Below, piece after piece: positions 35,342 through 40,694 of a stretch of 40,694 bases of DNA. The notes beneath the pieces are model-generated. The model was not told the origin of the DNA. It ran no database searches and worked only from the letters and a program-made list of their open reading frames with translations. The stretch covers positions 1 through 40,694 of IMG/VR virus record IMGVR_UViG_3300037587_001034; one strand, written 5' to 3'. Each line of letters opens with the position of its first letter. The stretch's first letter is position 1. Origin of the DNA: a virus. Position numbers and translations under genes: made by a program.

Positions 35342-36844
35342 ATGGAAAATAGCGATATTAAAAAAACCTCTAAGGGTCACCGTAACCTGGCCAAGGAAAT
35401 TGCCACCCGCGAGACGGACCCTAACTTTTATGGTGCGCTGGCCGTGCTGCCCAATCCAGACCCGATACTTCGCAAGCTGGGTAAAACGCAGGAAGTGTTT
35501 GATGCCATCGCCGCCGATGCCCATGTGATGGGTGAGCGAAGATCTATTCGCTCTGCATTGTTGGGTTTTGAGCATCGGTTACAGGTGGGTGGTGACGATA
35601 CCGCCAGCATAACGGCGTTGGAATTGTGTCAGCAGGTAATGGCTAACCGTCCCGCGCCTGGTCTGCGTTGGCCGGATGTTATCTGGAATAAAGCGCAGGC
35701 CATATTCAAGGGCCACGCCGTGCATGAAGTGGTGTGGAAGCGATTCGGTAATTATCTATTACCCGATAAAGTGGTAGACCGCCCAACGCAACGATTTGTT
35801 TTCGGCACCGACAATCAACTGCGCATCAAGACCCGCAGCAACCGGATTAATGGTGAAGAGTTGGGTGACTACAAGTGGCTGGTGACCCGCCACATGCCCA
35901 GCCATGACAACCCCTATGGCGAGGCGCTGTTCTCCAGTTGTTTCTGGCCATACACCTTTAAGCATTCAGGCTTTAAATTCTTCACCAAGTTTTGTGAAAA
36001 ATACGGAATGCCCTGGGCGATTGGTAAGTACCCGATGGGCACACCGGAGAAAGACCAGAAAGAGCTGGTCGAAGCGCTACAAAACATGGTGGAAGACGCA
36101 GTAGCTGCTGTGCCGGATAACGGTTCGGTCGAATTACTATCGACCAAGTCCAGCGGCATCCTGCCACAAGAACGCCTGATCATGATGTGCAACAGTGAGA
36201 TGAGCAAGGCGCTGACCTCGCAAACCCTGGCCACGGAAATTCAGGGTGAGGGTTCGCGCGCGGCATCGGAAACCCATCGCGAACGCGAGAAGGGGGTGAA
36301 TGAATCTGATCGAGAGATTATTTGTGATTCATTTAATCAACTGTTCCAGTGGATCACCGAGATCAATGTACCCGGTGCCACGCCGCCTACGTTTGATTTC
36401 TACCAGGAAGAAGAGGCCCGCAAGGAATGGGTGGAGGTGTTCGAGGGCGCTCGGAAGTACATTGATATCCCCGCGCAGTTTGCACATAACCGATTGCAGA
36501 TTCCAGTTGCGAAAGATGGCGAGGATGTATTGCCGCGTGGCGAAGCCAAGATCGCAACCAATCCACCTGAATTTAGCGCCTGCCCTGGTTGTGGTCATCA
36601 GCATGAATTTGCGGAAGGTGATGACATTGTTACCCGTCTGGCTAACCAGGCGTCAGCCGGTGCCGATGAAATTATTGAATCAATGGCCGAGCCGGTGCGC
36701 GAGCTGCTCGACCACTCGGAATCGCTGGAAGCCTTTCGTGACGGCCTGATAGAGCTGTACCCAAAAATGGATACACAACGCCTGGGCGAATACACCTCGC
36801 TGGCCATAATGACGGGCCTGCTGCAGGGGATGGATGATGCCTAA
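35342..36844 (+). CDS. Portal protein (Mu Gp29-like, DUF935)
   Basis: This is a 500-residue protein. The N-terminal block (LAKEIATRETDPNFYGALAVLPNPDPIL) and the ERRSIRSALLGFEHRL segment near residue 62 are typical of DUF935, the portal family of Mu-like phages. A Cys-x2-Cys-x-His region near residue 415 (FSACPGCGHQHEF) may bind zinc. The portal forms the ring through which DNA enters the head. Confidence 0.92.
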   Translation: MENSDIKKTSKGHRNLAKEIATRETDPNFYGALAVLPNPDPILRKLGKTQEVFDAIAADAHVMGERRSIRSALLGFEHRLQVGGDDTASITALELCQQVMANRPAPGLRWPDVIWNKAQAIFKGHAVHEVVWKRFGNYLLPDKVVDRPTQRFVFGTDNQLRIKTRSNRINGEELGDYKWLVTRHMPSHDNPYGEALFSSCFWPYTFKHSGFKFFTKFCEKYGMPWAIGKYPMGTPEKDQKELVEALQNMVEDAVAAVPDNGSVELLSTKSSGILPQERLIMMCNSEMSKALTSQTLATEIQGEGSRAASETHREREKGVNESDREIICDSFNQLFQWITEINVPGATPPTFDFYQEEEARKEWVEVFEGARKYIDIPAQFAHNRLQIPVAKDGEDVLPRGEAKIATNPPEFSACPGCGHQHEFAEGDDIVTRLANQASAGADEIIESMAEPVRELLDHSESLEAFRDGLIELYPKMDTQRLGEYTSLAIMTGLLQGMDDA

Positions 36845-37433
36845 GTCACGAATTCAATGTTTTTTTCTGGTACCAACCGGCGTTGATAGACTGTTTCTTC
36901 GACGTTATAAATCAACATCAAGTGATGATGATAAATGCTCGGTGCATGGATATCACAATGTAAATAAATTTATTGCCACTGAAGAACGAACCGAAGAGAG
37001 CTGCTCGGGTGATATTCATCCGCATAACGATGAGCGCTGGCCAACCCATTGTGGCTGTGGTTATGAGTTTACCGATGATGACAAGTGGCAGTTATTCCGT
37101 GAAGAAATTTATCGACGTCAGGACACCGGCGAAGAGATGATCCGGAGTGATGCGCCGGTAGGCGCGATGTGGGATGCAATTTGGTATGGCAGAAAAGGCC
37201 CGGATGGTAGGTCGCTCATGGTGCGCACACCGGGTGGTGACTGGTTTATCGATGACCGGGCATCCAATTGCACCATGCGTGATGATAACGAGCACCGGTG
37301 CTGGGTACGCCACGGCGAGGTGCCTAATATTACCGTCGGCAAAAACGGCCATACCTGCCGGGCCGGTGCCGGTTCCATTGCGCAGAAAACCTACCACGGC
37401 TTTTTGCGTAATGGGTATTTGGAAGAGTGTTAA
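36837..37433 (+). CDS. Cys-rich conserved phage protein
   Basis: This is a 198-residue protein overlapping the portal by 8 bp. It carries a start MPKSRIQCFFL, a Cys-His segment CSVHGYH, a CGCGYEF motif, and a conserved C-terminal block (ASNCTMRDD, CWVRHGEVP, AGAGSI, YHGFLRNG). Similar proteins, from memory, are common next to cytosine methyltransferase genes in Gram-negative phages. Function unknown; the Cys/His pattern suggests metal binding. It lies between portal and F, where inserted genes are unusual in Mu-like phages. Confidence 0.7.
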   Translation: MPKSRIQCFFLVPTGVDRLFLRRYKSTSSDDDKCSVHGYHNVNKFIATEERTEESCSGDIHPHNDERWPTHCGCGYEFTDDDKWQLFREEIYRRQDTGEEMIRSDAPVGAMWDAIWYGRKGPDGRSLMVRTPGGDWFIDDRASNCTMRDDNEHRCWVRHGEVPNITVGKNGHTCRAGAGSIAQKTYHGFLRNGYLEEC

Positions 37434-38429
37434 GTGAATGAGCTGGCTTTATGTGCCGGTGCACATGGTATTGGTCTTGGACTCAAACTCCTCTTCGATA
37501 AATTACGAACCGTTTGTTACGTTGAGCGGGAAGCCAGCGCGGCGGCCTCTCTCGTGGCGAGGATGGAAGACAAGGCCCTGGATAACGCGCCTGTCTGGGA
37601 TGATATTAAAACCTTCGACGGCAAACCGTGGCGTGGATCGGTGGATATCATCACTGCGGGATACCCGTGCCAACCATTCAGCACCGCAGGCAAACTGCTT
37701 GGTGAAAAGGATCCAAGACACCTTTAGCCTGACGTCAGACGAATTATTAGTGAGGTGGGCCCAGGTTGGGTATTCCTCGAAAACGTACAAAACCACCTTA
37801 ACCTTGGATTCCGAACCGTCAGAGAAGAATTACAAGAGATGGGCTACACGGCTGAGGCGGGATTGTTTACGGCGTCAGAGGTTGGTGCAACCCATGAACG
37901 GAAAAGATTATTCGTTTTGGCCCACGCCAACCGTCGCAGCAGCAAAGCAGGGGCAAACAGAACCAGACGGAAAAAGAGGGCAGACGCTGGTGGGTGCGGC
38001 AAGGGGCCAGTTGTGGCCGACGCCAATGTCGCAGGATGCGGAACAGTCAGGCTCAGCAAAAGCCAATATGACAACACTAAATCGAGCATCAAAGATGTGG
38101 CCGACACCTACAGCCAGGGATTATCGGAGCCCAAACAGTCGAGCCAGCCAGGAACGAAGAAATTTGAACAACAGGCGGGGCCAACAACTACAAAATTTTA
38201 CGGAACACAACTTCCTACCTCACCACCTGGGCCCAACCAGCACGAAGAGTGGGAACGCATCCTCTCCATCGACCCGACGCTTGAACCCGCGCTTTGTGGA
38301 ATGGATGATGTTATGGCCCATCGGGTGGACAGAATACGGATCGCCGGTAATGGGGTTGTCCCATTGGAAGCAGCAAATGCGTTCATCACTTTATTGGGTG
38401 CTATGGAATCGCAGTCATGCCTGAAGTAG
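37434..38429 (+). pseudogene. C5-cytosine DNA methyltransferase interrupted by one amber codon
   Basis: The frame starts with GTG and has the usual motifs: CAGAHGIGLGL (motif I), YPCQPFS with the catalytic Cys (motif IV), ENV (motif VI), RKRLFVLAHA (motif VIII) and GNGVVP (motif X). A TAG codon at 37725-37727 stands in the phrase HL-stop-P, where I expect Trp (HLWP in relatives as recalled). Before and after it the frame is the same, so one base (TGG to TAG) accounts for the break. Without it the enzyme would have 331 residues. It may be dead, a sequencing error, or read in a host that suppresses amber. It would modify phage DNA against restriction. Confidence 0.82.
37438..38424 (+). CDS. Second long frame over the methyltransferase gene (WPTPT-type)
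   Basis: The +1 frame is open for 328 codons and has no stop in the whole methyltransferase region. Its first ~130 residues look like shadow sequence. From about 37830 it shows YKRWATRLRRDCLRRQ, two WPTPT motifs and one WPTPM, and finally RLNPRFVEWMMLWPIGWTEY. From memory these are the marks of a separate group of phage proteins often labelled DNA methyltransferase. The same bases also encode motif VIII and motif X in frame 0. Either both frames are coded or one has been copied in annotation elsewhere. The start codon, if used, is unknown. Confidence 0.45.
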   Translation: MSWLYVPVHMVLVLDSNSSSINYEPFVTLSGKPARRPLSWRGWKTRPWITRLSGMILKPSTANRGVDRWISSLRDTRANHSAPQANCLVKRIQDTFSLTSDELLVRWAQVGYSSKTYKTTLTLDSEPSEKNYKRWATRLRRDCLRRQRLVQPMNGKDYSFWPTPTVAAAKQGQTEPDGKRGQTLVGAARGQLWPTPMSQDAEQSGSAKANMTTLNRASKMWPTPTARDYRSPNSRASQERRNLNNRRGQQLQNFTEHNFLPHHLGPTSTKSGNASSPSTRRLNPRFVEWMMLWPIGWTEYGSPVMGLSHWKQQMRSSLYWVLWNRSHA

Positions 38430-39661
38430 AACTCGGCAACCTGCCCTTTGATGAAGCGATTGACCACTTCCGCTCGAAGCTGAACATTCCCACGGAGCAC
38501 TTCGATAGCCTGCTTAGCGAGGCTCACGCCAAGGCGTTTACTGTGGCTGGCGCTACTAAGGCTGACTTGCTGGGTGATATTCGGTCGGCAGTGGATGAGG
38601 CGATCGCGAATGGCACATCCATCACCGAGTTTCGCAAACAGTTTGATACGGCGGTGCAAAAACATGGTTGGTCATACAAAGGTAAACGCGGTTGGCGCAC
38701 TCGAGTGATCTATGACAACAACCTGCGATCGGCTCACATGGCGGGGCGTTGGAAACAATTGCAGCGCACCAAGGACGGTCGACCTTATTTGACATATGTC
38801 ACCGTGGGTGATGGCCGGGTTCGGCCTCAACATAAATCATGGGAAGGCACGACTCTGCCCATTGATGATTCGTGGTGGCAGACACACTACCCGCCGAATG
38901 GTTGGGGTTGCCGTTGTACGATTCGCTCGCTTTCTCAACGGCAACTTGAGGCGATGGGTCGCGGTGTTTCAAAACGCCCGAACCTGAATCTGACCGAACG
39001 CATCAATGTGGCCAGCGGTGAGATTTACGGTGATGTGCCAGCAGGTATTGATGTCGGTTGGGATTACAATGTGGGCAAGGCATGGCTTGGGCCGGATATC
39101 GCCTTCGGTGAAAAGATCATGTCATTACCTACCACCATGCGTAACGCGGCGCTGACCAGCGCCCGTGATTTAGCGCCGCACCTTTCCACACAGTTCAACC
39201 CCTGGGCTACATCGCTTATGAATCGGCAAAGGCCGCTGAATGAAATTCGCACGGTGGGCTATTTATCGCCTGCTGTGGTTGATGATCTGGTTGCCCGCAA
39301 GCAGGCGCCGACCACGGCGGTGGTCACGGTCACCGATCGGGATGTCATGCACATGCTGCGTGATAGCAAGGATGGCAAACATATTCCCGCCGATATTATC
39401 CGCGCGCTGCCTGATGAGATATCCAACCCAAGTGCTGTGTTGTGGGACAAACGCGACCCGGCATTGCTGTATGTGGTCGATGTGCCTGGCGATATTCGCG
39501 ATGCCAAATTGGTGGTGCGGGTGAACTTCAAAACCAAGGCCCGTGGCCGGGATCAAAAGCGTCACTCGATGGTAACGAATGCGGTGCGAACCGGTGGCCT
39601 GGTTGAGTTACACAACCTGCGGGATAGCAGTATCTATGAAGTTATCGAGGGGAAAATTTAA
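38417..39661 (+). CDS. Mu F-like head morphogenesis protein with PBECR-type nuclease domain
   Basis: This is a 414-residue protein. Residues 1-185 form the Mu F domain, with RTRVIYDNNLRSAHMAGR (95-111), RPQHKSWEG (136-144) and NGWGCRC (161-167). From about 275 a second domain begins (RTVGYLSPAVVDDL, ALLYVVDVPGD, LVVRVNFKTK, with a final TGGLVELHNLR) that fits the phage Barnase-EndoU-colicin-RelE-like nuclease group (PBECR). F goes into the head as a minor protein, so the nuclease-like part could be injected with the DNA. It overlaps the methyltransferase by 13 bp and is the last gene of this operon. Confidence 0.85.
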   Translation: MPEVELGNLPFDEAIDHFRSKLNIPTEHFDSLLSEAHAKAFTVAGATKADLLGDIRSAVDEAIANGTSITEFRKQFDTAVQKHGWSYKGKRGWRTRVIYDNNLRSAHMAGRWKQLQRTKDGRPYLTYVTVGDGRVRPQHKSWEGTTLPIDDSWWQTHYPPNGWGCRCTIRSLSQRQLEAMGRGVSKRPNLNLTERINVASGEIYGDVPAGIDVGWDYNVGKAWLGPDIAFGEKIMSLPTTMRNAALTSARDLAPHLSTQFNPWATSLMNRQRPLNEIRTVGYLSPAVVDDLVARKQAPTTAVVTVTDRDVMHMLRDSKDGKHIPADIIRALPDEISNPSAVLWDKRDPALLYVVDVPGDIRDAKLVVRVNFKTKARGRDQKRHSMVTNAVRTGGLVELHNLRDSSIYEVIEGKI

Positions 39662-39932
39662 CCACCGTGGAGGGGCGCTATTCCAGGGCTTGCACCCGGC
39701 ATCCCTCATGTATGAACCCGAAGATTCAAGCGATCAGCCCAGCGGTTTTCTGTCGTCACGATGGAGTTAAAAGTATAGATCAAAAAAAGAGAGGAAGCGA
39801 CCGGCCTGGTGCGACAACACCTGGCCAGCCGCCAGCAAACGGTAGTAACACCGTAAGCCAGCCAAGGCTCCCCGCTGTGTACACAGCACGGGAAGCCTAT
39901 CACGAAAAACAATAAGAAACGTGGAGCTTACT
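39662..39932 (+). promoter_or_regulatory. Non-coding leader of the adenine methyltransferase with nested dyads
   Basis: No convincing gene is present. A nested dyad lies at 39865-39898: AGGCT-CCCG pairs with CGGG-AGCCT, with one mismatch (C opposite A) inside each arm, around a perfect 12-bp palindrome CTGTGTACACAG (39875-39886). A weaker imperfect dyad lies near 39803-39827. The final part carries the ribosome binding site GTGGAG. In Mu the methylation-related mom gene is tightly regulated at its leader; a similar control here is possible but not shown. Confidence 0.45.
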
Positions 39933-40694
39933 ATGTCAAAACCTATCGTGCCGTGGATCGGCGGCAAGCGTCGCCTGGCCAAATACATCCTGCCCAAGTT
40001 CCCTGAGCATAAGTGTTATGTGGAGCCATTTTGTGGCGCTGCGGCATTGTTCTTTATGAAGGTGCCAAGCAAAACTGAAGTCATTAATGACATCAATGGT
40101 GAACTGGTTAATTTGTACCGGGTGGTGAAACATCATCTGGAGGAGCTTTGCAAAGAGTACAAGCGGTCTTTGATCAGCCGGGAAATGTTCGACTGGGCCA
40201 AGATCACACCACCGGAGACGCTGACCGATATTCAACGAGCGGCCCGGTTTTTCTACCTGCAAAAACTGAGTTTTGGCGGCAAGGTTCAGGGGCAGACTTT
40301 CGGTACCGCACCCAGCGCACCGCCCAAGCTGAATTTCACCAGGATAGAGGAGGATTTATCGCTGGCGCATTGGCGGCTGTCACGGGTCTACGTCGAGCAC
40401 CTGGACTGGCAGAAATGCATCAAGAAATACGACCGGGAATACACCCTGTTTTACTGCGATCCACCCTATTGGGAGACGGAAGGATACGGCGTTGACTTCG
40501 AGCTGGACCAGTACCAGGTGATGGCCGACCTGGCCAAGCGCATCAAGGGCAAGATAATCATCAGCGTCAACGATCACCCGGCCATGCGGGAGGCGTTTGC
40601 TGGCCTAACCATCGATACGGTCGATATCACCTATACCGTAGGTGGTGCCAAAGGAGCTAAGAAACGGCAGGAGCTGATCATATCAAGCTGGTAA
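39933..40694 (+). CDS. DNA adenine N6-methyltransferase (Dam/D12 class)
   Basis: This is a 253-residue protein; start ATG 39933 is preferred because GTGGAG lies seven bases upstream. It shows the D12-class signature: WIGGKRRLAKYI (8-19), EPFCGAAALFF (motif I, 31-41) and YCDPPY (motif IV, 174-179), with a final TRD-type region. It transfers a methyl group to adenine, probably in GATC-like sites. In a phage it protects progeny DNA or alters regulation. It lies 271 bp after F and is the last gene in the window; its stop is the window end. Confidence 0.92.
   Translation: MSKPIVPWIGGKRRLAKYILPKFPEHKCYVEPFCGAAALFFMKVPSKTEVINDINGELVNLYRVVKHHLEELCKEYKRSLISREMFDWAKITPPETLTDIQRAARFFYLQKLSFGGKVQGQTFGTAPSAPPKLNFTRIEEDLSLAHWRLSRVYVEHLDWQKCIKKYDREYTLFYCDPPYWETEGYGVDFELDQYQVMADLAKRIKGKIIISVNDHPAMREAFAGLTIDTVDITYTVGGAKGAKKRQELIISSW

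Follow-up and report, generated by a model that had tools for sequence, protein, structure and literature searches.

The window, that is, the whole stretch of DNA analysed here, comprises 40,694 nucleotides and corresponds to positions 1 to 40,694 of the IMG/VR virus record IMGVR_UViG_3300037587_001034. Near its end lies a cytosine-C5 methyltransferase gene over which two reading frames overlap on the same strand, namely frame A (frame 0, the catalytic frame) and frame B (the +1 frame). As the neighbours are a Mu-type portal and a Mu F-like head protein, the window is assigned to a Mu-like phage. A search of viral contigs for near-identical DNA returned none, and a search of E. coli genomes gave no match. 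The features of the region are the following:

35342-36844: Mu-type portal, neighbour of the methyltransferase
36834-37433: ORF of 199 aa between the portal gene and the methyltransferase, without significant family match, ending directly before the GTG of frame A
37434-38429, + strand: frame A, cytosine-C5 methyltransferase catalytic subunit with motifs I-VIII and X (PF00145), 331 codons, interrupted by a TAG
37434-37440, + strand: overlapping starts GTGAATG read from the sequence, with A's GTG at 37434 and B's ATG at 37438; GGAAGAG upstream is the likely ribosome site
37438-38424, + strand: frame B (+1), PHROG 1008 protein (phrog_1008), proposed recognition and motif IX subunit, 987 bases, 328 aa
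37665-37673, + strand: frame A motif IV, PCQ with the catalytic cysteine, from the translation; invariant in the frame A alignment
37725-37727, + strand: in-frame TAG in frame A, where relatives read W (DDRHLW or DPRHLW); frame B is unaffected
37779-37787, + strand: frame A motif VI, ENV, from the translation; EN is invariant in the frame A alignment
37893-37931, + strand: frame A motif VIII, HERKRLF, together with LAHAN, whose codons give WPTPT in B
37918-38112, + strand: recognition-region repeats of frame B, WPTPT (37918-37932), WPTPM (38014-38028) and WPTPT (38098-38112)
38275-38337, + strand: frame B motif IX, RRLNPRFVEWMMLWPIGWTEY, from hhalign to single-chain enzymes and conservation in B
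38325-38390, + strand: frame A motif X region (RVDRIRIAGNGVVPLEAANAF), from the translation; GNG and VVP are conserved in the frame A alignment
38417-39661: Mu F-like head protein, neighbour
39921-40694: Dam-like adenine methyltransferase, downstream of the head gene

Besides the cytosine-C5 pair of frames A and B, this phage thus carries a gene for a second kind of DNA methylation, the Dam-like adenine methyltransferase.

Frame A presents motifs I, IV, VI, VIII and X in order, meeting the criterion for a C5-cytosine DNA methyltransferase. Its start is the GTG at 37434, immediately 3' of the TAA of the upstream ORF. A preliminary description of the window had noticed two real-looking frames over one methyltransferase, the +1 frame being open for 987 bases, and this was confirmed; the extent it gave to frame 0, from 37790 onwards with motifs VIII and X, had to be corrected, as the frame begins earlier, includes motifs I and IV, and is split by the TAG at 37725-37727 into two ORFs. 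Both pieces match PF00145 (8.6e-13 for the first and 1.2e-11 for the second), and over the bases of the +1 frame, frame 0 carries motifs VI, VIII and X and matches the same family. Motif IX and a recognition domain are absent from the frame A chain, whose alignment with single-chain enzymes is confined to motifs I-VIII.

Regarding frame B, it matches phrog_1008 (E 3e-25, profile positions 40-281 of 329) and phrog_27243 (5e-12). It contains YKRWATRL at 37831-37854 and LNPRFVEWMMLWPIGWTE from 38281. Read one base apart, the same codons give WPTPT in B and LAHAN or VADAN in A, and B's LNPRFVEWMMLWPIGWTE overlies A's LEPALCGMDDVMAHRVDRI; it is because their motifs share the same DNA that both frames had looked familiar. 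No Pfam or NCBIfam family matches the window's B, no meaningful Pfam match was obtained among 116 B members, and neither PADLOC nor PDB sequence searches returned anything for B. All 116 B proteins match PHROG 1008, a family labelled DNA methyltransferase.

The B signature in the +1 frame of A was found in 263 fetched loci including the window (80+11+80+79+12+1), or 262 without it. A profile search of viral contigs yielded 484 B relatives among 600 stretches, and a search of bacterial genomes another 147, from Alphaproteobacteria, Acidovorax, Myxococcus, Pseudomonas, Chloroflexi and other hosts or bins. By sampling, the signature was present in 80/80 loci chosen by A, 80/80 bacterial-genome loci and 79/80 viral loci chosen by B, the sole exception (L064) having a broken A; across the split set, the B motif was never found in frame 0. 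Both frames are open for more than 300 codons in the first four relatives, which are Acidovorax phages Alfacinha1 and 3, Synechococcus phage Ssp-JY39 and an IMG/VR contig. In the three named phages (L001, L002, L003) the deposited gene is the B frame, entered as "cytosine-specific methyltransferase" in Alfacinha1/3 and as "hypothetical protein" in Ssp-JY39, and the catalytic frame is not annotated. The arrangement hence recurs in hundreds of phages and prophages, and annotation usually records one of the two frames. The open-access literature that we searched, which leaves out most subscription papers, contained no description of the general overlap pattern in phages.

We then evaluated whether the two frames are protected from stop codons. 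As a search based on B favours open B frames, 80 loci were sampled by A alone, ignoring B, and the synonymous codons of A were shuffled within each gene over the trimmed A span, with codon usage kept. Frame B had 1 stop in these loci against 341 expected, while the +2 frame of the same genes had 8-26 stops per gene; in the window itself, the second stretch of A had 0 B stops against 3.8 expected (p<0.01). The reciprocal analysis, on loci sampled by B and with B residues fixed, gave 14 A stops against 266 expected and 15 against 247 in the recognition region (29 against 512 when pooled), whereas the third frame was not depleted in the same test (342 against 318 and 371 against 341). Frame A is therefore kept readable through a stretch of barely conserved residues, as expected if A must reach motif X. 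Control genes behaved differently: E. coli dcm had 14 +1 stops against 19.3 expected, and the single-chain enzymes of Rita (7 against 6.2) and prophiGD91-2 (8 against 9.2) lacked +1 protection, although one of eight viral single-chain genes, L259, was depleted (6 against 12.6).

The location of constraint along the gene was analyzed by counting substitutions in 13 close pairs that were disjoint and had homologous recognition regions; position 1 of A is the wobble position of B. Pooling close pairs without checking for homology of the recognition region blurred the signal, as this region has been swapped in many of them, and restricting the analysis to homologous pairs cleared it. Changes at A codon positions 1/2/3 were 58/25/114, 21/13/74 and 32/8/63 over motifs I-VIII, 263/47/38 in the recognition region, 30/5/7 in motif IX, and 22/18/55 from motif X to the end. 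Within the recognition region and motif IX, changes synonymous in B and nonsynonymous in A outnumbered the opposite by 288 to 41, and the contrast between these segments and motifs I-VIII was strong (Fisher p 4e-65, with the reservation that the counts are sites and not independent events). These results show that the constrained frame switches, being A over motifs I-VIII and X, and B over the recognition region and motif IX. In agreement, identity over motif IX among 47 divergent sequences was 0.81 in B, 0.58 in A and 0.29 with shuffled codons; the z-scores of this shuffle are inflated by shared ancestry and the third frame also rises, so that absolute values should not be over-read. It was also observed that many pairs near-identical over motifs I-VIII have unrelated recognition regions, which suggests that these regions are often exchanged, altering both frames at once.

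We then focused on what each frame contributes. The segment RLNPxFVEWLMGWPxGWT of B is the motif IX that A lacks, and in single-chain mycobacteriophage enzymes the same signature lies in frame: Rita gp76 and prophiGD91-2 gp27 carry in one chain motifs I-VIII, LPTPxxxD repeats, RLAPAFSEWMMGWPAGWVT and then GNGVVPQQA. When the B profile was compared with the single-chain enzymes by hhalign, motif IX was matched with a probability of 96.4% and an E of 1.3e-9, over only 35 columns. The single-chain profile extends in turn into M.HhaI 271-307 (TRKLHPRECARVMGYPDSY...GNSVV), the known motifs IX and X; this alignment scores 4 bits, weak alone but in the right place. Moreover, the AlphaFold model of frame A from one relative (L005) is confident over residues 1-170 and 290-325 and disordered over 171-287, its best PDB match is M.HhaI, and the disordered part coincides exactly with the stretch where B is constrained. 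The model of B was of low confidence (pLDDT 61), poor except around motif IX, and a Foldseek search of it against the PDB found no match, leaving the fold of B unproved; such a poor model might be anticipated if the chain needs its partner in order to fold.

The start of B is conserved. Its ATG lies 4 nt past the start of A (GTGAATGAG in the window), and B begins with M(S/A)WL or similar in 176 of the 263 loci. The A-frame Asn codon that makes this ATG is AAT rather than AAC in a ratio of 126:10, compared with 876:1545 elsewhere in the same genes (Fisher p 2e-41). Since B's start codon is conserved, independent initiation is favoured and a frameshift product disfavoured. In L171 and 15 other loci, the A-frame codon preceding B's ATG is TTA, which is not a start; there, B retains its ATG, preceded in L171 by GGTGG, whereas A may begin at a later codon, and it is conceivable that B is the better-initiated frame in these sixteen loci.

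As TAG 37725 interrupts A, the activity of the window's own copy is doubtful, and the enzyme is probably off in this phage unless the stop is suppressed or the two pieces complement each other. Amber recoding was considered; TAG also terminates six other picked ORFs, which does not suggest recoding. Among 161 loci, of which 160 were sampled by B and one is the window, A occupies more than one ORF in 13, and in six of these, the window included, the cause is a single in-frame stop at differing places, which agrees with scattered decay or with errors in the sequences. In four related loci (L015, L174, L179 and L188) the organization is different: A stops just after motif VIII and is followed by several in-frame stops, a separate short ORF whose ATG is conserved encodes motif X, and B remains uninterrupted over 430-509 aa. 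One may ask whether these encode a methyltransferase of three polypeptides, a possibility we raise only tentatively.

Altogether, dual coding at the level of the family is as good as shown, and the explanation we regard as very likely, in the absence of protein, ribosome-profiling or methylation data, is a naturally split C5 methyltransferase, its two subunits being read from one stretch of DNA in overlapping frames. Frame A would provide the large catalytic domain, with the SAM-binding and catalytic motifs I-VIII, a linker under low constraint and motif X, and frame B would provide the small domain, with the WPTP-repeat recognition region and motif IX. Ribosomes would start A and B independently at the two start codons, one message giving both proteins; translation in vivo is inferred. 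The two chains would then assemble into one enzyme, and this heterodimer, its activity, the need for both chains and the target site are likewise inferences. The middle of A and the first half of B would be mainly passengers that need only stay open.

Three other explanations were considered. Programmed ribosomal frameshifting could join motifs I-VIII of A to the recognition region and motif IX of B in a single chain; constraint does run from A to B and back to A along the gene, and some relatives have other frame orders (L265) or adjacent ORFs (Upyo genes 54/53). However, a second shift back would be needed to reach motif X, and a frameshift product would require neither A to be open through the recognition region, nor B to be open in its first half, nor a conserved B start, so that, even without data on slippery sites, we find this very unlikely. 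It is equally improbable that B serves a different function as a protein of its own, e.g., as an inhibitor or an anti-restriction factor, and merely overprints the methyltransferase. B is long, resembles no solved fold and could bind other partners, but its most conserved part is motif IX, found in frame with the same PTP repeats in single-chain methyltransferases, A has no motif IX, and in the fetched loci B was found only over a methyltransferase. Lastly, mis-annotation, in which only A codes and the open B frame merely reflects codon bias and the conserved motifs of A, could draw on the missing Pfam match for B and on deposited annotations that choose either frame, but is refuted at the family level and all but excluded by the single B stop against 341 expected with each gene's codon usage kept, by the better conservation of motif IX in B than in A, and by recognition-region changes that are mostly synonymous in B.

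As for the remaining proposals of the preliminary description, overprinting is strongly supported by stop depletion in both frames and by the B-synonymous changes, and the outcome that would have refuted it, purifying selection only in frame 0 with stops in the +1 frame, did not occur when tested. We do not favour a frameshifted alternative C-terminus, since B has a conserved start codon of its own. Mis-annotation is also real, in the sense that Alfacinha1/3 and Ssp-JY39 were deposited as B only. The preliminary description saw in the +1 frame the marks of another phage family, but overlooked that the hallmark of B is a methyltransferase motif IX, which makes B the part that A lacks of the same enzyme rather than an unrelated family.

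The split-enzyme reading would explain PHROG 1008, misleadingly labelled and without a Pfam model, as the half of a methyltransferase that carries recognition and motif IX. It would also mean that, with annotation of one frame only, databases lack or misname many catalytic or recognition subunits. In addition, the family represents a large and strongly supported natural case of full-length, same-strand overlapping genes with switching constraint, suited to testing models of overlapping-gene evolution, and offers numerous candidates for naturally split methyltransferases, an architecture that targeted methylation tools already exploit. A bolder reading, which we consider rather less likely than not, is that a large family of phage and prophage methyltransferases has relocated its DNA-recognition half to the alternative frame of the gene for its catalytic half, some lineages (the four loci with a separate motif X) now being in three pieces; if so, the overlap would fix the linkage between catalysis and recognition while recognition regions are still exchanged.

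Several known systems share parts of this organization. Rita gp76, prophiGD91-2 gp27 and the Propionibacterium PFR1/PFR2 enzymes, all single-chain, have the same catalytic domain and motif IX signature, with PTP repeats in Rita, prophiGD91-2 and PFR2; unlike A/B, single-chain phage C5 methyltransferases are encoded in one frame, with the +1 frame unprotected from stops. In PHROG 1008, the label DNA methyltransferase hides the absence of catalytic motifs, which are encoded in the other frame. For Paenibacillus phage Diva, the depositors annotated both frames (gp49, with gp50 as "g49 internal gene") and gave no function; B is shorter there and starts about 184 nt into A. In L265, motifs I-VI run on in frame into B-type sequence (SATWPTVGTMRNG...LLPTPTASD) and the motif IX match lies in another frame, a further permutation of the same methyltransferase parts. 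Regarding characterized split enzymes, the smaller subunit of M.AquI (CYCGRG) carries motifs IX and X (PMC3404938). As in M.AquI, catalytic motifs and recognition parts are on separate chains in A/B, but motif X is in A, so that the criterion of a small chain with IX and X is not met; genes 54/53 of Gordonia phage Upyo (L284) are more M.AquI-like, being adjacent, partly overlapping methylase ORFs of which the second has PTP repeats, IX and X.

The closest precedent is M.EcoHK31I (YGGCCR), whose larger subunit has motifs I-VIII and X with the predicted recognition domain, and whose smaller subunit has motif IX (PMC3404938, citing Lee, Kam and Shaw 1995). In M.EcoHK31I, the coding sequence of the small subunit lies within that of the large subunit, in a different frame. 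Both systems thus have a catalytic chain with motifs I-VIII and X and place motif IX on the other chain, in overlapping frames. They differ in that the recognition constraint lies in the small-subunit frame B, with A unconstrained and modelled as disordered there, and in the extent of the overlap, as the window's B covers nearly the whole of A. In its proposed mode of action the A/B family resembles M.EcoHK31I, and the two may be homologous. Overall, the split type was already known, with M.EcoHK31I as its characterized precedent, and what is new in the A/B family is its spread, the full-length overlap and the switching of constraint between frames.
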